Part shown: positions 3,548 to 11,362 of the stretch, piece after piece
Layout of the letters: each line of letters begins with the position of its first letter
Numbering within the stretch: position 1 is the first letter of the stretch
Assembly (NCBI GenBank): GCA_017650905.1
Contig: JAGCDZ010000107.1
Span: 1-58,591, forward strand
Source: Prevotella sp.
GTDB lineage: Bacteria; Bacteroidota; Bacteroidia; Bacteroidales; Bacteroidaceae
Reading direction: 5' to 3'
Length of the DNA stretch: 58,591 nucleotides
The notes under the pieces: model-generated
What the model was told of the DNA's origin: nothing
The model's input: the letters and a program-made list of their open reading frames with translations, nothing else
Databases searched by the model: none
Translations under genes and position numbers: made by a program

Positions 3548-4471
3548 ATGGAGACGAAAGATCATAACATACAAAGATTACGTGAGGCAGTGGAATCTGT
3601 TTCTGGCAGACGTATGCAGACACCCAAGGATTTCGATTATCTTCGTAACAGCATTTATGAAGAATGTCATGAGATGGTAAGTATCTCTACGTTGAAAAGG
3701 CTTTGGGGGTATAATAGGTATGATAATACGCCCCGTAAGTCGTCACTCAACCCCATTGCACGCTATGTCGGGTTTCGCGATTGGGATGACTTTCTCCAGC
3801 ATAATTCCAACGATGAAGAGCGGAAAATGCCAGAAGAATTACCTACATCCACCAAGAATGAGCCACATCGGCACATTAGGATTTATGCCCTTGTTGCCCT
3901 TCTTATACTGATAGTAATAGGTGGTGGATTATTGCTGAAACAGACTCTGTCGGAAGGACAGGATGATACTTCGACTCAGAAAGATACTATTGCCTCCTCA
4001 GGAAAGCGTGTGCTGCGAAAGGGACAGGACTGTTTCCGCACGATTGAAGACTATCTGTCACTTTTTGGCATTGAAGCTACCGATACAGCCTACTTCCGTC
4101 CATTGCCAGACCATAAATTTGTCTATCTGTGGGGCCCAGAGTATATGCATCCCGTATGGCACAACGAGGGAGATACGACTCAACTCATGCCTACAATTAC
4201 CGAATATTGGACACCATTGCCTGGCGAACAGGACTATCAAAATAAGGAATATGTGAAACTGGCCAATGAGAAACTCTACTATGAACGGTTGGAGAAAGAC
4301 GAACTGCGCCTCACATTCATGAAGAACATCGTTGACGGTTTTTATGTCTTTCTGGGTATCTACCGTATGGACAAGGAGAACTCCTCCATAGAGAAAACAG
4401 TCTGGAAACGTGTGACTGACCAATGCGATCTGGGCAACCTCGATAAAGTGGAACTGCTGAGAAACGAGTGA
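3548..4471 (+). CDS. Single-pass membrane protein with N-terminal Bacteroidetes HTH-like domain
   Basis: A 307-residue protein of unknown function. Residues 1-85 contain a module common in Bacteroidetes hypothetical proteins: RMQTPKDFDYLRNSIYEE, then ISTLKRLWGYN, then NPIARYVGFRDWDDFL. It looks helical and helix-turn-helix-like. A single membrane helix follows at about 110-131 (IYALVALLILIVIGGGLLL). The C-terminal 170 residues form a soluble domain with no motif I recognise. The layout, cytoplasmic HTH-like head plus membrane anchor plus external domain, resembles an anti-sigma or signal-relay protein, but that is only inference. The gene is monocistronic with a strong promoter and is followed by repeats and an inverted repeat. 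Confidence 0.75.
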   Translation: METKDHNIQRLREAVESVSGRRMQTPKDFDYLRNSIYEECHEMVSISTLKRLWGYNRYDNTPRKSSLNPIARYVGFRDWDDFLQHNSNDEERKMPEELPTSTKNEPHRHIRIYALVALLILIVIGGGLLLKQTLSEGQDDTSTQKDTIASSGKRVLRKGQDCFRTIEDYLSLFGIEATDTAYFRPLPDHKFVYLWGPEYMHPVWHNEGDTTQLMPTITEYWTPLPGEQDYQNKEYVKLANEKLYYERLEKDELRLTFMKNIVDGFYVFLGIYRMDKENSSIEKTVWKRVTDQCDLGNLDKVELLRNE

Positions 4472-4653: not shown

Positions 4654-6198
4654 ATGGCAAAGAGATTATCCAAATCGCGTTACACCACGTATTGCCAGTG
4701 CCCAAAGGCATTGTGGCTGAAAGTGTATAAACCTGATGAAGCTACTGTTGATGCAAGTGTTGAGGCTCGTTTCGAGAGCGGTAACGAAGTGGGAGACCTG
4801 GCAATGGGGCTGTTTGGCCCGTATGTGGAGGTGACGACGAAACATGAAGACGGCAGCCTCGACCTCAATGCGATGGTGGAGAAAACCAAGCAGGAGATGG
4901 AGCGAGGCACTGAGGTGATCTGCGAGGCTTCGCTGACTTTCGAGTCGCACTATTGCGCAGTTGATATCCTGCGCAAGACACAAGGTGGCTGGGCCATCTA
5001 CGAAGTAAAGAGCAGCAGTTTTCCTGAGTTCGACGGCCAGGCTGCCAGATTAGAGAAATACGCACCCGATATTGCCTATCAGAAGTGGGTGCTGACACAA
5101 TGCGGCATCAATGTGACAGGCACCTATCTCATCTGCCTGAACAGCGACTATGTGCGTCAGGGTGAACTCGATTTACAGCAACTCTTCGTCACCGTCGATA
5201 TGCGTGAGTTGGTGGAGAACGAATATCTGAAGGTGCCTGTCAGAGTGAGTCAGGCCTTGAAGGTCATCAACAACGAGGCTGAGCCCGACCTCGACCTCTC
5301 GGAGCACTGCATGAAGCCCTACCGCTGTGCCTTCCTTGAATATTGTAAACAAAAGCATGGCGTACCCACGCCCTCAGTCTTCGATATCTATGGCGGTAAA
5401 GGCCGAGGCGGTTTCACGTTTGCCAAGAAGCTGGCTTGCTACCAAGCAGGACAAATCACGTTCGAGGACTTAAGAGGTCTGTCGATTGGCCCCATTCAGA
5501 ATATGCAGATTGAGGCAGCGCTAACGGGGCGCGAACACATCAATCCCGCCGGCATCCGCAGTTTCCTCTACAAGCTTTATTATCCTTTGTATTTCCTCGA
5601 CTTCGAGACTATGCAGGATGCCATTCCGCAGTACGATGGGGCAAAGGTCTATGCGCAGATAACCTTCCAGTATTCGCTGCATATCAAGGAGAGTGAGACG
5701 GCACCTTATCAGCACAAAGAGTTCCTGGCTCCCAGCGATGGCAGTGACCCACGCCGCTCGTTAGCGGAGCGTCTTTGTGAGCACATCCCTATGAACGTCT
5801 GTACCTTGGCATATAATATGATGTTCGAGTGTGGACGCATCCGTGAGTTGGCCGCGTTGTATCCAGACCTTGCTACGCATCTGCTGAACATTGCTGACCA
5901 TATCGTTGACCTCATCGACCCGTTCCGTGCAGGTGATTACTATGTGCCTGCTATGGGCGGCTCATTCAGTATCAAGAGTGTGCTGCCTGCCCTTTTCCCC
6001 AATGACCCCGAGCTCGATTACCACAATCTTGATGAGCGTTGTCAGAACGGTGGTCATGCCATGACTATCTTCCCCAAGATCAAGGATATGAAACCTGCCG
6101 AAGCCGCCGCCAGTCGTGAAGCCCTCCTCCGCTATTGCGAGCTCGATACCTGGGCAATGGTAAAAGTCTGGGAGAAACTGAAAGAAGTTGCTGAATAA
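4654..6198 (+). CDS. DUF2779 protein: Cas4/RecB-like nuclease fused to DEDD exonuclease-like domain
   Basis: A 514-residue predicted double nuclease. The N-terminal half resembles Cas4/RecB nucleases. It opens with SKSRYTTYCQCPKALWLK and has the PD-(D/E)xK residues Asp104 (AVDIL), Glu117 and Lys119 (YEVKSSS). Cysteines in CMKPYRCAFLEYC, together with the N-terminal CPKALW cysteine, could bind an iron-sulfur cluster as in Cas4 and AddB. The C-terminal half is the DUF2779 region with DEDD-type exonuclease motifs: FLDFET (Asp316, Glu318), AYNMMFE (388-392) and YCELDT (Asp498). All key residues look intact. DNA or RNA cleavage is known for the component folds; the role of the fusion is not known to me. 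No cas genes or arrays are nearby. It is the first gene after the ATPase relic side of the island. Confidence 0.85.
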   Translation: MAKRLSKSRYTTYCQCPKALWLKVYKPDEATVDASVEARFESGNEVGDLAMGLFGPYVEVTTKHEDGSLDLNAMVEKTKQEMERGTEVICEASLTFESHYCAVDILRKTQGGWAIYEVKSSSFPEFDGQAARLEKYAPDIAYQKWVLTQCGINVTGTYLICLNSDYVRQGELDLQQLFVTVDMRELVENEYLKVPVRVSQALKVINNEAEPDLDLSEHCMKPYRCAFLEYCKQKHGVPTPSVFDIYGGKGRGGFTFAKKLACYQAGQITFEDLRGLSIGPIQNMQIEAALTGREHINPAGIRSFLYKLYYPLYFLDFETMQDAIPQYDGAKVYAQITFQYSLHIKESETAPYQHKEFLAPSDGSDPRRSLAERLCEHIPMNVCTLAYNMMFECGRIRELAALYPDLATHLLNIADHIVDLIDPFRAGDYYVPAMGGSFSIKSVLPALFPNDPELDYHNLDERCQNGGHAMTIFPKIKDMKPAEAAASREALLRYCELDTWAMVKVWEKLKEVAE

Positions 6199-6229
6199 TT
6201 TGAACTTTTCGAGAGAAGTGACTATATTA
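6199..6229 (+). promoter_or_regulatory. Island-type promoter P1 (before the 6258 gene)
   Basis: TTTGAA (from 6199), then TATATTA (6223-6229); the TTTG-to-TATATTA gap is 20 bases. The spacer CTTTTCGAGAGAAGTGAC resembles those of the promoters at 9105 and 11083. It starts directly after the DUF2779 stop codon. The box lacks the usual TTTG ending. Confidence 0.6.
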
Positions 6230-6257: not shown

Positions 6258-7100
6258 ATGAATAAATTAGTAGAACAGTTGCAGAAGTTGCAAGAGAAAA
6301 AATGGAAGAGGTGGACTGAGGCCTTTGAGGATGAGGACACCCACGAGATGGTTGACGTAGAGCGCGAGGAATTGCTCACCACAGAGACCTCCGACGAGGA
6401 GCACGAATTGTGGCAGCAAATCATTCCTGAACTCCCTAAACTGAGTGACGAAGAACTAAGGACTCTTCAGCGCCAAATACTCTCTACCGACATCGACGAC
6501 ATATCGATTGTCGAGGTGCTAGCAGAGCGAGGCAATGTCGATGCCCTCAGTCAGGTTGGCGATATTGCCATGCTTCAGGAACTCTGCGAACAAGGCAATC
6601 GTGATGCAGCTCGTGAGCTGTACTTGAAGTTCTACTATGGCGACGAGGAAAACGGCATCTTCATCAATCGCAAGAAGGCAAAGGAATATTACAATCTGGC
6701 TGGTGATGCGGCGTATGAGGAATGGGATGACTCTGATGACCCAGGGGAAGAAGATCCCTCTAACTATGAATATACGCTCACTGGCGATGCAGGCACCCTC
6801 AACGCCATCCGCAAGATGATAGACGACTTTTGTCGCGACTATGGTACACCAGGCAATGAACTTGGACTATATGTTCCACAGCGCATCTTGATGAAACTGC
6901 TCGTTGGTTCTGATACAGAATACTATCGTGGCAATATCCTCACGATGGAGCAGCCTGCTCCAAACAATCTCGTCATCACCACCGAGGCCGACAATGGCTA
7001 TTCCCTGCTCTACGCCCTGCGTCAGTGCTTCGAGAATCTGGAGATAACAATGAAAGAAAAAAATAAAAAAAACTCGCGATGTAAAAGGTACCTATATTAA
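6258..7100 (+). CDS. Sel1-like acidic protein, paralogue of the sigma-fusion C-terminus
   Basis: A 280-residue soluble protein, strongly acidic at the N-terminus. From residue about 13 it aligns with residues ~135-390 of the sigma-fusion protein at 9163: KRWTEAFEDEDTHEMVDVERE pairs with HRWNETFIDEDTGEEVTVERD. A Sel1-like unit follows (GNRDAARELYLKFYYGDEENG, then KAKEYYNLAGDA). The last third, TLTGDAGTLNAIRKM to LVITTEADNGYSLLYALRQCF, is the most conserved. Sel1/TPR-type repeats mediate protein contacts. The C-terminal tail after EITMK is extra relative to the paralogue and runs through the promoter-like sequence at 7093, as if an original stop had been lost. Function unknown; likely works with the sigma-fusion protein. 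Confidence 0.75.
   Translation: MNKLVEQLQKLQEKKWKRWTEAFEDEDTHEMVDVEREELLTTETSDEEHELWQQIIPELPKLSDEELRTLQRQILSTDIDDISIVEVLAERGNVDALSQVGDIAMLQELCEQGNRDAARELYLKFYYGDEENGIFINRKKAKEYYNLAGDAAYEEWDDSDDPGEEDPSNYEYTLTGDAGTLNAIRKMIDDFCRDYGTPGNELGLYVPQRILMKLLVGSDTEYYRGNILTMEQPAPNNLVITTEADNGYSLLYALRQCFENLEITMKEKNKKNSRCKRYLY
7093..7099 (+). promoter_or_regulatory. Weak island-type promoter P2
   Basis: CTATATTAA preceded by TCGCGATGT, similar to the promoter at 11083, but the -33 box is replaced by an A tract. It overlaps the stop codon of the upstream gene. It could drive the two small genes at 7129 and 7322. Confidence 0.3.
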
Positions 7101-7128: not shown

Positions 7129-7320
7129 ATGACTATATTGACTGTTATTGGCGTTGTCGTTTTGATCATACTGCTTTTTGTGGGCGGTGGTCTGTTGGGA
7201 TGGCTCATCAAGGGGGTGGAGGTCGTCTTCAACTTCTTATCGGAAGGCTGTAGCCATACTCTAGGCTGTCTGTTCTGGATTTTTATAGGTTTCTGTGTGT
7301 TGATCGTTTTATTCTTATAA
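7129..7320 (+). CDS. Small hydrophobic membrane protein (63 aa)
   Basis: A 63-residue protein with two predicted membrane helices: residues 2-27 (TILTVIGVVVLIILLFVGGGLLGWL) and about 43-62 (GCLFWIFIGFCVLIVLFL). A short amphipathic link between them holds two cysteines. It starts 28 bases after the previous stop. One base separates its stop from the next start, so translation of the two genes is probably coupled. I do not recognise a family. Small membrane partners of this kind are common in signalling and defence loci, but nothing here proves such a role. Confidence 0.6.
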   Translation: MTILTVIGVVVLIILLFVGGGLLGWLIKGVEVVFNFLSEGCSHTLGCLFWIFIGFCVLIVLFL

Positions 7321-7321
7321 T

Positions 7322-7696
7322 ATGAAAAGAGGTTTACTATTATTTGTTTTTCTATGTGCCGTAATATCCATGTGGGCACAGAAGGAGATTTCGTATATCG
7401 AGACCACCAAGAACTGGTATTACATATATGATGGAAGTGGTAAGAAAATCAAGACGCTGTACCGCAGTGGCATCGGCGACATCAAGGGATGGGGGAAGGA
7501 CTTCTTTGTGACCAAGCGAGGAGCCTTCTACCTGATTTGTGATGCTGAGGGGAAGACGTTGAAGACGCTTGGCGCACAGTCGGTGGGTGAAGTGGTTTCT
7601 GTATCAGGCAGCACCTTCACCAGTCGCCTCGGCGTATGGATCTACACCTGGAACAAGGAGGGCAAGAAGATTAGCACTCGAGCTGCACAGAAATAA
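7322..7696 (+). CDS. Small secreted protein, beta-rich (124 aa)
   Basis: A 124-residue protein with a signal peptide (MKRGLLLFVFLCAVISMWAQ) and a mature part of about 104 residues. The mature part contains repeating strands: NWYYIYDGSGKKIKTL, GAFYLICDAEGKTLKTL, GVWIYTWNKEGKKISTR. These look like three copies of one blade-like motif (aromatic-Y-x-x-D/W-x-E/S-GKK). It is predicted periplasmic or outer-membrane associated. No family recognised. Coupled to the small membrane protein upstream by a one-base gap. Confidence 0.7.
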   Translation: MKRGLLLFVFLCAVISMWAQKEISYIETTKNWYYIYDGSGKKIKTLYRSGIGDIKGWGKDFFVTKRGAFYLICDAEGKTLKTLGAQSVGEVVSVSGSTFTSRLGVWIYTWNKEGKKISTRAAQK

Positions 7697-7730: not shown

Positions 7731-8795
7731 ATGGAGAACTTTGATTTAGAAAAAGATTTTATTGAGTATTGGGATCATGTGATAAGGCTATGGCTTGACC
7801 AAAATGCCGATGTTACCCTTTTTAAAAAAGATGAGGATGCAAAAGAACAGCTTCAGGTGATAAATGCAATTAATGAGAATTGTAAGAATAGTGCCAATTA
7901 CAAGCTTAACACCATGCACATGCCTGAACCATACTGGGGTAACCCTACTGATTGTTCTATTGTGTTGTTGGATTACAATCCTGCCGGTGGACCAGACCCC
8001 AATCGTCACACTACTATAAAATATAAGGATGGCGACGAGAGTGGCATGAAATTGATTAAATATGTCAATGATCACAACAGTTATAGTAACTTTGCCACTG
8101 AGTGTCCTGTCTTTAGAGATGCCAAAGACTTGGAGAAGAACGGAATGGATTGGTTCTGTGCAAAGAAAGAAGAAGAGGGTAAAGGTGGCTATGAAGGTTA
8201 TCATTGGTGGCAAAGCAAACGTGAATGGCTTGACCATCTCGTGGTAGCTGTCTGTGGCAAGAAAAACGAGAGATTGCCCTTTGGCATGGAGCTTTGCGGA
8301 TGGCATTCGAAGAAGTGGAAAAACAATAGTTGGACAGATAATTGCACTGATATTATCGACAGGAGAGCCATACAGCCACTGTTTGAAAGTCTGAAGAAAA
8401 GCTCTGCAAAGATTGCCGTATGCATAGGTGCAGAGTTTAAATATGAGCTGATGAAGGAATTTTTCCACGATAAGATCGAAGATGTCACAAAAAATATATG
8501 TGATCGTTTAGGTAGCGAAATTTCAATGCCAGAATCTGCTCTCGATAATCTTCGTTATTATGTCAGTAGCGAGGTGGAGAATATCCATGTCGTTGCAAAA
8601 TGGCAATATGTAATGAAGAGGAAAAAGGTGGTTGCTTATGAAGAGAAGCAACGCAATTACCGTGTGTTTAAGATAACGGACAATAATGAAACATATTATA
8701 TTCTCAACACGAACAGTAGTGGCGGCAATCATCATCCAGGGGAACATTTCTGGCCATTTGAGAAAGTATTAATTGATGCCATTAAGAAAGCATGA
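7731..8795 (+). CDS. Hypothetical protein with uracil-DNA-glycosylase-like features
   Basis: A 354-residue soluble protein. Residues about 76-86 (IVLLDYNPAGG) resemble the N-terminal NPG-type motif of proteins with the uracil-DNA glycosylase fold. This is followed by NFATECPVF, DWFCAKKEEE and YHWWQSKREWLDHL. A second hydrophobic strand segment, AKIAVCIGAEFKYELMKEFF, fits a second alpha/beta unit. I cannot confirm catalytic residues, so the family link is tentative. Its last four bases overlap the start of the next gene (ATGA), so the two are translationally coupled. The base composition is more AT-rich than its neighbours, which suggests separate acquisition. Confidence 0.55.
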   Translation: MENFDLEKDFIEYWDHVIRLWLDQNADVTLFKKDEDAKEQLQVINAINENCKNSANYKLNTMHMPEPYWGNPTDCSIVLLDYNPAGGPDPNRHTTIKYKDGDESGMKLIKYVNDHNSYSNFATECPVFRDAKDLEKNGMDWFCAKKEEEGKGGYEGYHWWQSKREWLDHLVVAVCGKKNERLPFGMELCGWHSKKWKNNSWTDNCTDIIDRRAIQPLFESLKKSSAKIAVCIGAEFKYELMKEFFHDKIEDVTKNICDRLGSEISMPESALDNLRYYVSSEVENIHVVAKWQYVMKRKKVVAYEEKQRNYRVFKITDNNETYYILNTNSSGGNHHPGEHFWPFEKVLIDAIKKA

Positions 8796-9088
8796 ATACA
8801 GAGAAAGACTGGGAACTATACATTGAAGAAGAGAGGGACACCGTAGTGGCGGAGCTGAAAGGTGAAGGCTACGAGGTTGCAGAAGAAGGGATGTTCGTCT
8901 CTGGCTTTTGGAACGTCATCTTACAACGAGGCGACGAGCGGGTGGAACTGTCTTGCTCTGCTATCGAACAGGATGAGGTCGACGATGGCACCATCGCCCC
9001 TGAGGATGCCGAATGGTGGGTGCAACTCGTTGTCGTATGGGACGAAAAAGACAGAGAGAGAACGGAGCGAACTTATCCTTGTGAATAA
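8792..9088 (+). CDS. Small acidic hypothetical protein (98 aa)
   Basis: A 98-residue, very acidic, soluble protein (about a quarter Asp/Glu). Its order of charged and beta segments is WELYIEEERDTVVAELKGEGYEVAEEG, then FWNVILQRGDERVELSC, then WWVQLVVVWDE. It may be a small alpha/beta fold. It overlaps the stop of the UDG-like gene by four bases, so it is probably made in fixed ratio with it and could be its partner or inhibitor; that is inference. No family recognised. Confidence 0.6.
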   Translation: MNTEKDWELYIEEERDTVVAELKGEGYEVAEEGMFVSGFWNVILQRGDERVELSCSAIEQDEVDDGTIAPEDAEWWVQLVVVWDEKDRERTERTYPCE

Positions 9089-9104: not shown

Positions 9105-9136
9105 TTTGAATTTTTCATGGAATGTATCTATATTAG
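9105..9136 (+). promoter_or_regulatory. Island-type promoter P3 (before the sigma-fusion gene)
   Basis: TTTG (9105-9108), 20 bases, TATATTAG (9129-9136). The core TTTGAATTTTTCATGG is almost the same as in the promoter at 11083. It lies 26 bases before the sigma-fusion start. Confidence 0.7.
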
Positions 9137-9162: not shown

Positions 9163-10335
9163 ATGATAAACGAAAAAGACAAAAAGAAAGGTTTTAACAT
9201 TGACGAATTCCTTATTGAAATTGGCCGTGAGCCATTGCTGAGTGCAGAGGAAGAAATGGTACTAATCAAGGCCATTCAGGAAAAGGGGCCCGAGTGCAAC
9301 AAGATGGACAAGCTGGTACGTTCCAATATGCGGTTCGTGGTAAGTGTCGCCAACCAGTACAAAAACAAGGGACTCTCTCTTGAAGAACTGATTGAGGTCG
9401 GAACAGAAGGTCTGAAGAAAGCGGTAGAGAAGTTCGACCTCAATGCAGAGTGCAAATTCCTGTCGTATGCCGTCTGGTGGATTCGTCAAGCTATGATTCA
9501 GGCTATTAGCGAAAAGACAGGAAACCCTATGATGGATGCAAGAATTGAATCACTGGTCAAGATGCTGGAGCGGAATCATCATCGCTGGAATGAGACTTTC
9601 ATTGACGAGGATACGGGTGAAGAGGTGACGGTGGAACGTGATGAACTGATCTCTACCGACACCACAGAAGAAGAGCGCAACCTGATGGAGAACGTTGCCG
9701 CCAGTGCTGACAAAATAAGCACGGAGGCCCTGCGCGTTTTCATAGACAAGACAAGAAGTTTCTGGCCACGTCCGTTTGATGATGTCTATATGGAACTGGT
9801 GCGCCGTGGTGACGAGAGTTGGGCATGCGTCATCGACAACCCTGAAATGCTACAGAAACTCTGTGATAAAGGTATCAAGGAGGCTGCCGAACAACTCTAT
9901 CAGAAATACCGTTATGGCGATGAGAAGAATGGCATCTTCATCGACAAAAAGGCAGCCAAGACCTATTACGACATGGCAGGCGATGCGGTCTATGAGCAAT
10001 ATACCACTGAGGATTTTCCTGAAGAGGAATACCCTAAGGAGTTCCACTATACACTTATTGGCAATAGCGTAACACTTGATGGAGTAGAAACACTCATCAA
10101 TGACCTTTGCCAGCAGTTTGGTACGCCAGGCAACGAGTGTGGGCTTTTCGTGCCGCAGCAGATGTTGATGAAGATGTTGGTGGGCAGCGATTCGGAATAC
10201 TATCGCGGTAATGTTCTCGCTATGGAACGGAAAGCCTCCGACAGCCTCGTCATCACCACAGAGGCCGACAATGGAGAGCCGCTGCTCTATGCCCTGCGCC
10301 AGTGCTTTAAGAATTTAGATGTAGAAATGAAATAA
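9163..10335 (+). CDS. Sigma-70 region 1.2/2 fused to a Sel1-like domain
   Basis: A 390-residue chimera. Residues 12-42 (NIDEFLIEIGREPLLSAEEE) match RpoD region 1.2. Residues 49-117 match region 2, including RSNMRFVVSVANQYKNKGLS, a region 2.3/2.4 segment FLSYAVWWIRQAMIQAISEK, and the aromatic residues used to melt the -10 box. Regions 3 and 4, which bind the -35 side, are missing. Instead, residues ~135-390 are a Sel1-like and conserved C-terminal domain shared with the protein at 6258. The reading frame is unbroken. Core RNA polymerase binding and -10 recognition are known for region 2; how this protein would find promoters without region 4 is open. Neighbours with near-identical promoters suggest self-contained regulation. 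Confidence 0.85.
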   Translation: MINEKDKKKGFNIDEFLIEIGREPLLSAEEEMVLIKAIQEKGPECNKMDKLVRSNMRFVVSVANQYKNKGLSLEELIEVGTEGLKKAVEKFDLNAECKFLSYAVWWIRQAMIQAISEKTGNPMMDARIESLVKMLERNHHRWNETFIDEDTGEEVTVERDELISTDTTEEERNLMENVAASADKISTEALRVFIDKTRSFWPRPFDDVYMELVRRGDESWACVIDNPEMLQKLCDKGIKEAAEQLYQKYRYGDEKNGIFIDKKAAKTYYDMAGDAVYEQYTTEDFPEEEYPKEFHYTLIGNSVTLDGVETLINDLCQQFGTPGNECGLFVPQQMLMKMLVGSDSEYYRGNVLAMERKASDSLVITTEADNGEPLLYALRQCFKNLDVEMK

Positions 10336-10956: not shown

Positions 10957-11082
10957 AACTTAAACCAAGAATCAGTTGTAGAAAGCTATATGCCGGAGGC
11001 TGGCAGGCATCCTTCTAATCCTGTAGAAGAAAGGTCTTGGGATGCCATTTTTATATTGCCATGAAAAAAAGTTGGTCGATTT

Positions 11083-11114
11083 TTTGAATTTTTTCGCGAA
11101 TGTGTCTATATTAT
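11083..11114 (+). promoter_or_regulatory. Island-type promoter P4 (before the 11141 gene and the ATPase)
   Basis: TTTG (11083-11086), 20 bases, TATATTAT (11107-11114). The spacer has TTTTTTCGCGAATGTGTC. It lies 26 bases before the 11141 start codon, the same distance as at the sigma-fusion gene. Confidence 0.7.
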
Positions 11115-11140: not shown

Positions 11141-11362
11141 ATGACCACAACAATCAGCACCAGTTCCAAAAACTACTTCAACAAAATCCAAAACTACCTC
11201 AACAACAAAAGACTCCTCTTTACCCCATCCATTAACAATGGGGTCTATACCCTCACCATCTTTGAACTCTCATCCTCTCAAACCACCTCTCTCATTCAAA
11301 AAATGACCAAACACTTCCATCTCTCACCCAAACAGTCAGAGCCTTTGGCTTTGGCTGCCTAA
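11141..11362 (+). CDS. Small protein (73 aa) with G-poor coding strand
   Basis: A 73-residue protein that starts 26 bases after a good promoter and ends 14 bases before the ATPase. The sequence is rich in Thr, Ser, Asn, Lys and Leu, with a short beta segment NNGVYTLTIFELSSSQ and a possible helix TTSLIQKMTKHFHLS. The coding strand has very few G bases until the last 25 bases, and third positions are mostly C. This is unlike the neighbouring genes. It may be a recent arrival or its mRNA may need to be unstructured. No family recognised. Position and promoter make it a likely real gene; a leader-peptide role is possible. Confidence 0.55.
   Translation: MTTTISTSSKNYFNKIQNYLNNKRLLFTPSINNGVYTLTIFELSSSQTTSLIQKMTKHFHLSPKQSEPLALAA

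Follow-up and report, generated by a model that had tools for sequence, protein, structure and literature searches.

A half-sigma module fused to a Sel1-like/C-terminal partner protein in a recurrent gene island of Prevotella and other Bacteroidaceae

Introduction

In the texts cited here, RsoA is described as a sigma-2 protein whose sigma-4 resides in a separate protein (PMC8103513), and the similarity of the late sigma factor gp55 of bacteriophage T4 to sigma-70 as confined to domain 2 (PMC2988020). PhyR carries a sigma-like domain fused to another domain and binds an anti-sigma factor, not acting as a sigma factor itself (PMC4598750), and the ECF42 sigma factors possess a TPR-rich C-terminal extension (PMC8999054).

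Here we analysed a contig of Prevotella sp. (GenBank assembly GCA_017650905.1, contig JAGCDZ010000107.1; 58,591 bp, hereafter the window) encoding a protein in which one half of a sigma factor (regions 1.2 and 2) is followed, in the same frame, by an unrelated part. The data agree with an island-borne sigma-2 module linked to this second part. It is possible, and it is the reading that we tentatively prefer, that the fusion protein is an island-encoded mimic of sigma domain 2, either a bait or a regulator, rather than a promoter-melting factor.

Results and Discussion

Domain organization and selection

The ORF of the fusion protein runs from ATG to stop codon without interruption (Table 1). 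Pfam analysis identified Sigma70_r2 at residues 51–117 (E 4.1e-14; 52.6 bits vs a cutoff of 24) and Sigma70_r1_2 at residues 17–40 (22.3 bits vs a cutoff of 22). These matches uphold the original prediction of RpoD regions 1.2 and 2 followed by another domain in one frame and, by the region 2 profile, the protein belongs to the sigma-70 family at domain level. Regions 3 and 4 had been predicted to be absent, and indeed neither gave a Pfam match up to E 1, so that by Pfam the protein lacks the region 4 which a functional sigma-70 factor has for the −35 element. Alignments with the SigA, RpoS and RpoD sequences of the PDB were confined to residues 9–164 (best E 2.9e-23), and the WWIRQ segment occupies residues 105–109. 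The general sigma70-ECF model of NCBIfam scored above its cutoff (56.6 vs 42.9), and none of the specific RpoD/RpoS models did so among the best 25 of 48 matches. The sigma part (regions 1.2–2.4) is hereafter called half-sigma, and the conserved protein part C-terminal to it, with one Sel1-like repeat, is called CTD.

Table 1. Features of the island locus in the window.
Positions	Strand	Feature	Evidence
4654..6198	+	514-aa DUF2779 protein that includes a Cas4-like region; recurs in the islands	
6200..6229	+	Island promoter-like motif upstream of CTD paralogue	Pattern search
6258..7100	+	CTD paralogue, 280 aa, 51% identity, without sigma half	Sequence comparison
7129..7317	+	c5, 63-aa protein, hydrophobic by eye; recurrent island member	
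7322..7696	+	c9, 124-aa protein, signal-like at the N-terminus by eye; recurs in the islands	
7731..8795	+	354-aa protein, weak match to Brig1 (anti-phage DNA glycosylase), 3.8e-8; 33 bits vs cutoff 230	
8792..9088	+	c4, 98-aa protein, recurrent island member	
9105..9135	+	Island promoter-like motif upstream of fusion gene	Pattern search
9163..10335	+	Fusion protein, 390 aa: half-sigma, Sel1-like repeat and C-terminal domain	ORF, Pfam, PDB matches
9163..9531	+	Half-sigma part (regions 1.2–2.4), residues 1–123	Pfam, alignment
9532..10332	+	CTD part; internal ATG (Met124) is the start position of the stand-alone CTD gene in L085	
10348..10956	+	202-aa protein, zinc-ribbon-like cysteines by eye; without significant family	
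10960..11055	+	Conserved intergenic element, predicted stems and T run	
11083..11113	+	Island promoter-like motif upstream of 73-aa c2 gene	Pattern search
11141..11359	+	c2, 73-aa protein ending ..ALAA	
11377..13047	+	AAA+ ATPase, 556 aa, IetA/Cdc48-like; recurrent partner	

The second part had been called a Sel1-like/conserved domain. One such repeat is suggested by weak PDB matches of the C-terminal profile over about 45 residues (TPR protein 6deh, E 0.054; SEL-1 repeat protein 8sxq, E 5.4); Pfam gave no Sel1 match in the fusion protein, and no significant profile assigns it to the Sel1 repeats. Beyond this repeat the C-terminal part has no assigned family: for its sigma-less paralogue in the window, Pfam gave nothing above cutoff, and NCBIfam nothing up to E 1. 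An internal repeat, with CTD compared to the N-terminal domain of longer CTD proteins, was not supported (hhalign probability 1.8%). The DEDTGEE stretch of CTD (window 9574–9675) matches the phage family phrog_35807, of unknown function, with values of 7.9e-6 for the fusion and 4.5e-6 for the CTD part.

Comparison with the homologue in L036 gave a dN/dS of 0.21 in the sigma half and 0.12 in the remainder of the fusion protein, values that denote purifying selection. Over the comparisons made the range was 0.09–0.21, with 0.34 for a pair lacking the WW of the melting segment. Purifying selection is in favour of a mimic, although such low values are unlike those of an arms race. They also contradict, for the intact copies, the idea that these genes are relics, that is, decaying RpoD fragments in a recombining island without a selected function. 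Broken or degenerate copies do occur (a remnant beside a nucleotidase in L097, a 76-aa copy in L085 and a chimaera in L099), but the linkage of half-sigma and CTD is a further argument against decay, which we consider very improbable.

Recurrence of the fusion and of its separate parts

Half-sigma and CTD were found fused in six genomes or records: the window, L036, L037 (= L102), L009 (L092), L010 (L090) and L091. Identity to the window protein was 87% for L036, 63–64% for L037 and about 50% for L009, L010 and L091. Since independent records share the fusion, a chance fusion or an assembly error was rejected. The original prediction had counted against itself a fusion confined to a single strain, or homologues encoded by two separate genes, and had proposed searching other genomes for the same fusion and neighbours; both the fusion and its neighbours proved to be recurrent. 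The separate genes occur in other genomes, alongside the fused copies, and this coexistence of split and fused forms is indicative of a functional pair. In L085 half-sigma and CTD are adjacent genes, the half-sigma stop codon being followed by 13 nt and the CTD start, and in L087 and L088 one gene lies between them. The CTD protein of L085 begins with MDTRIES and the window reads MMDARIES in frame at the same place, suggesting that the ATG at 9532 once served as a start codon.

A second fusion partner was identified in three genera: an NT5C-type nucleotidase that carries half-sigma at its C-terminus (G111, G200, G339, G417 and G758). The Pfam NT5C assignment was run on L086 and the other fusions were assigned by sequence likeness. 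Fusion to two unrelated partners favours the mimic. In a tree of 51 rows and 115 columns, 27 full sigmas and L075, an RpoD cut by the contig end, clustered together (support 100/100), to the exclusion of the 23 half-sigmas. L075 was left out of these 23 unique half-sigmas, and was grouped with the half-sigmas in the 24 residue rows described below and in the tree set. The CTD and NT5C fusions are scattered among the half-sigmas, with 20 of the 47 inner branches weak, and this interspersion makes repeated fusion or module exchange likely, though not proven.

Screening of 398 genomes of the genus with a CTD profile gave 17 genomes at E 1e-6, some of the matches being fragments. The half-sigma profile gave 16 matches of at least 150 bits in 13 genomes, and the next matches (146 bits or less) were sigma ORFs of ordinary length. 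Both parts were present together in 11 of the 398 genomes, on one contig in every case; half-sigma was found without CTD in G063 and G189, and CTD without half-sigma in six genomes (Fisher p about 1e-15, a value that does not correct for relatedness). At family level, and including the own genome, CTD was present in 12/399 genomes (6/30 genera) and half-sigma, at E 1e-43, in 3/399 (3/30 genera). The source assembly (2.9 Mb in 110 contigs, 72% complete) has four sigma-70 matches besides the fusion, and the paralogue of Table 1 is its second copy of the C-terminal part.

Region 2.2 and the melting segment

In the cited text (PMC4598750), the contact of sigma domain 2 with RNA polymerase is described as lying mainly between the region 2.2 helix and the beta-prime coiled coil. 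Residues are numbered here as in E. coli, by adding 328 to the window residue according to the matching ranges against PDB sequences. Position 407 is A, V or I in 25/25 half-sigma rows from 19 loci and five genera, a set in which two g20 rows (35 and 41 bits) and the g8 rows are weakly aligned. Likewise E407 is replaced by A, V or I in the 23 true, unique half-sigmas, vs E in all 27 unique sigmas of the genus. Changes of E407 impair core binding. Among 89 viral sigma ORFs, retrieved with patterns that ask for part of the melting segment (their WW share is hence biased) and leave 407 outside, E or D is found at 407 in 85, D403 in 86 and N409 in 87. In the 24 half-sigma rows that include L075, D403 is changed to E in 21, N409 is retained in six and position 406 is acidic in 20.

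The window protein has E, V and T at 403, 407 and 409, differing at all three from the D403, E407 and N409 of a functional sigma-70 factor. The name of core-binding half, given in the original prediction, is weakened, as the region 2.2 helix is altered in every half-sigma row. Judging from the sequences, core binding may be altered and not lost, given the acidic position 406 in most rows.

The change at 407 is one of the arguments for a mimic, and the acidic 406 speaks against it. According to the mechanism that we propose, an RpoD-type sigma piece (regions 1.2–2.4) would be kept as a module, here joined to a Sel1-like/CTD partner protein, and half-sigma would act otherwise than by ordinary holoenzyme formation. 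Its sigma-2 surface could be presented to a usual binding partner of sigma 2, such as an anti-sigma or polymerase-takeover factor of phage or cellular origin. We know of no anti-sigma target of half-sigma. The fused or neighbouring CTD, or the NT5C-type nucleotidase, might convert this binding into a response, probably against phages or in other conflicts.

The same residues bear on another explanation, in which half-sigma is an RNA polymerase docking adaptor, a hijacker or blocker that binds the clamp in an altered way and recruits CTD, NT5C or the AAA+ ATPase without starting transcription. It would explain why the sigma-2 sequence is retained overall, why 406 is acidic and why half-sigma is fused to varied cargo. 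However, those same rows are devoid of E407 and mostly of N409, and we consider it unlikely.

The −10/melting segment is better conserved: F427 is retained in 23 of the 24 rows, Y430 in 21, and W433, W434 and Q437 in 19 each. The WW pair is present in 17/25 half-sigma rows, a share biased upwards because the profile used to collect these rows was derived largely from half-sigmas that have WW. Retention of these residues argues against a mimic, since a bait need not keep them, and suggests a split sigma factor in which half-sigma reads and melts the −10 part of the island motif and a partner, CTD or another protein, gives the upstream contacts, as in SigO/RsoA or T4 gp55/gp33. What favours this doubtful alternative is the retained −10 reader together with the island-restricted motif described below; the alteration of 407 in all half-sigma rows is against it.

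A promoter-like motif upstream of island genes

The motif TTTGAATTTTT-N9-GTGWCTATATTA precedes many island genes, commonly at about 30 nt from the ATG (range 11–111 nt), and from its place and form it was inferred to be a promoter. Within 200 bp upstream it was found in 37/107 genes of recurrent families vs 6/193 other genes and 3/300 shuffled sequences, and among half-sigma genes 13 of 19 have it. Three copies occur in the window, vs 0.04 expected by shuffling, and all three matches of a relaxed pattern in the source assembly, within its 72% completeness, are in the island locus. An island-restricted motif of this kind suggests a dedicated transcription factor for which half-sigma is the obvious candidate, a point for a split sigma and against a mimic.

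The exact motif gave 33 matches in 17 of 50 chosen genomes: 11/13 with half-sigma, 3/5 with CTD only, 2/5 with the ATPase only and 1/27 without a half-sigma or CTD match, some of these 27 matching the ATPase profile. Of the 33 matches, 27 are on contigs where a locus with half-sigma, CTD or the ATPase is also present. Three matches (G055, G071:C50 and G111:C104) have one other sequence in common and were judged unrelated, and those of G321:C23, G047:C43 and G200:C47 are off the island contigs. A third pattern, which partly accounts for the invariant motif columns by demanding them, gave 41 matches in 19 island loci (335 kb), 17 in 13 loci from other genera (155 kb) and 3 in 8 ATPase loci (109 kb), vs none in 44 control loci (144 kb) and none in 79 viral loci (899 kb).

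The motif remains in six of the seven genomes in which all half-sigmas of the fetched loci lack the WW pair (G200, G758, G597, G710, G717 and G063, the last with one W), and melting of those promoters by half-sigma is thus unlikely there. This persistence favours a mimic and opposes a split sigma. The occurrence of the motif in AAA+ loci without a detected half-sigma, such as G049 (99% complete), also opposes a split sigma. In addition, the Bacteroides promoter consensus is given in the cited text as TTTG near −33 and TAnnTTTG at −7 (PMC7366714), and the island motif, read as TTTG-N20-TATATTA, could represent a variant form of the usual Bacteroidetes promoter, which again weakens the case for a split sigma.

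A conserved intergenic element of the island, about 95 nt long and in many cases immediately preceding the motif, has one copy in the source assembly and 13 more in L085–L097 and L135. Two stems and a T run are predicted (13 of 14 copies aligned). No copy was found in viral contigs by exact pattern, and Rfam gave nothing at gathering across the whole window, with three chance-level matches in the intergenic stretch.

Genes of the island

The genes recurrent around half-sigma and CTD encode the AAA+ ATPase, c2, the DUF2779/Cas4-like protein, PD-(D/E)XK proteins (Pfam PDDEXK_4, PADLOC PDC-S26) and small proteins. Nine other loci encode an AAA+ ATPase with 75–84% identity to the window copy, and in the ten loci having both, it lies on the same strand as half-sigma or CTD, the order in L095 starting with the ATPase. 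Its distribution is wider than that of half-sigma (33/150 genomes at E 1e-80). In the c1 cluster (13 members), the L088 protein 16367 (661 aa) is FtsH-like by eye and not the island ATPase, and L100 and L101 are fragments. In L099 (7409–8023) a CTD piece runs, by eye, into a DUF2779-like piece, apparently through recombination or decay. The ..ALAA tail of c2, which we take to be ssrA-like, has 13 further counterparts in other loci, and a DNA hairpin is possible by eye at the 3′ end of the gene (e.g., GGAGCC-TCT-GGCTC).

Of 10 island proteins, selected for the most part as likely nucleases, 8 matched PDC-S26 of PADLOC, which also gave matches in five of ten further island neighbours. This company of candidate defence genes favours a mimic, against which stand the other five neighbours without a match and the absence of PDC-S26 from the nine ORFs of the window locus scanned with PADLOC. 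The window locus encodes the IetA-like ATPase (IetA match 4.4e-33) together with weak Cas4 and mREase_II matches. The IetAS defence system has the protease IetS beside IetA, and no protease was found in the subset of window ORFs scanned. Near the island edge, positions 3548–4468 encode a protein with an SRA-domain match (PF18491, 4.8e-11; PADLOC mREase_II match 2.8e-7) with related genes in L094 and L098.

A phage or plasmid origin of the C-terminal part was rejected, as 65 pattern matches in viral contigs included no relative and plasmids gave none. No match in phage or plasmid records covered 80% of the whole fusion protein; the best 10 of 314 plasmid and the best 20 of 78 phage records matched within its first 195 residues. 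With half-sigma alone, the best 10 of 57 phage records looked like ordinary sigmas, as did the best 80 viral stretches out of at least 575, and none of 89 viral ORFs ended within 60 aa after region 2.

Finally, a second captured piece of RpoD was identified in G710 (genus g20). There, positions 4691–5713 of L117 encode a protein of 341 aa, next to a CTD gene, that has two domains of region 4 but lacks region 2 (Pfam 8.1e-18 in two stretches; 54% identity to RpoD L004 over 54 residues). The same contig encodes a 331-aa protein with an RpoD-like start, MRQLKITKSITNR, and a degenerate sigma-2 stretch below the Pfam cutoff. Capture of a further RpoD part is in line with a mimic. A region-4 protein in a related island would also suit a split sigma, but L117 had the only strong region-4 match in a scan of 32 loci (8827 ORFs), of which many were partial contigs; a weak one (0.017) was found in L086 and none in the window.

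Proposed function and comparison with known systems

The original prediction offered a polymerase hijacker, a decoy or a promoter-melting factor. In our reading the decoy fits best, and the melting factor is weakened by position 407 and by the persistence of the motif in most cases where WW is lost. Our reasons for preferring a sigma-2 mimic to a melting factor are this persistence, the change in the docking helix, the diversity of the fusion partners and the company of candidate defence genes. A wider and rather doubtful proposal is that of a Bacteroidaceae conflict system in which captured sigma pieces (sigma 2, and sigma 4 in one genus) would be baits fused to effectors, guarding against attack on the interface of sigma and polymerase, in islands with their own promoter class and AAA+ ATPase. 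Should half-sigma be a bait, bacteria would have a counterpart of the integrated decoys and would be shown to guard their transcription machinery; should it be part of a split sigma, this variable island would have a dedicated promoter system and an altered docking on the polymerase. Under either reading, a half-sigma with the −10 reader mostly kept and the docking helix changed offers a direct test of the need for region 2.2.

The original prediction also stated that no described sigma factor has this layout. A literature search for a fusion of sigma regions 1.2–2 with this layout, or for a half-sigma island, indeed gave no match; nevertheless, RsoA and T4 gp55 as sigma-2-only proteins and the TPR-bearing ECF42 are known relatives in form. 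The likeness to MzaA of the MZA anti-phage system lies in a sigma-70 region-2 stretch inside a defence protein, and both the window fusion and the NT5C fusion match the MzaA models at that stretch. However, these models have 683 and 726 aa, the sigma stretch alone matches (78.5 bits vs an NCBIfam cutoff of 800), and no other Mza match was found in nine window ORFs, so that the locus lacks the full MzaA and further Mza protein of an MZA system. PhyR resembles half-sigma as a sigma-like domain fused to another domain, but it has ECF-type sigma-2 and sigma-4 subdomains with a receiver domain. ECF42 shares with the window fusion the combination of a sigma factor and a TPR-type C-terminal extension, although it is an ECF sigma with a sigma-4 domain. 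T4 gp55, as described in the cited text, is likewise sigma-70-like in domain 2; it is a phage protein that docks on the core and works with gp33 and gp45, and the phage and viral matches listed here were, unlike gp55, ordinary sigma-like ORFs. To our knowledge RsoA has no Sel1-like/CTD fusion. In the aspects covered by the cited description, half-sigma is like RsoA a sigma-2 without a sigma-4 of its own.
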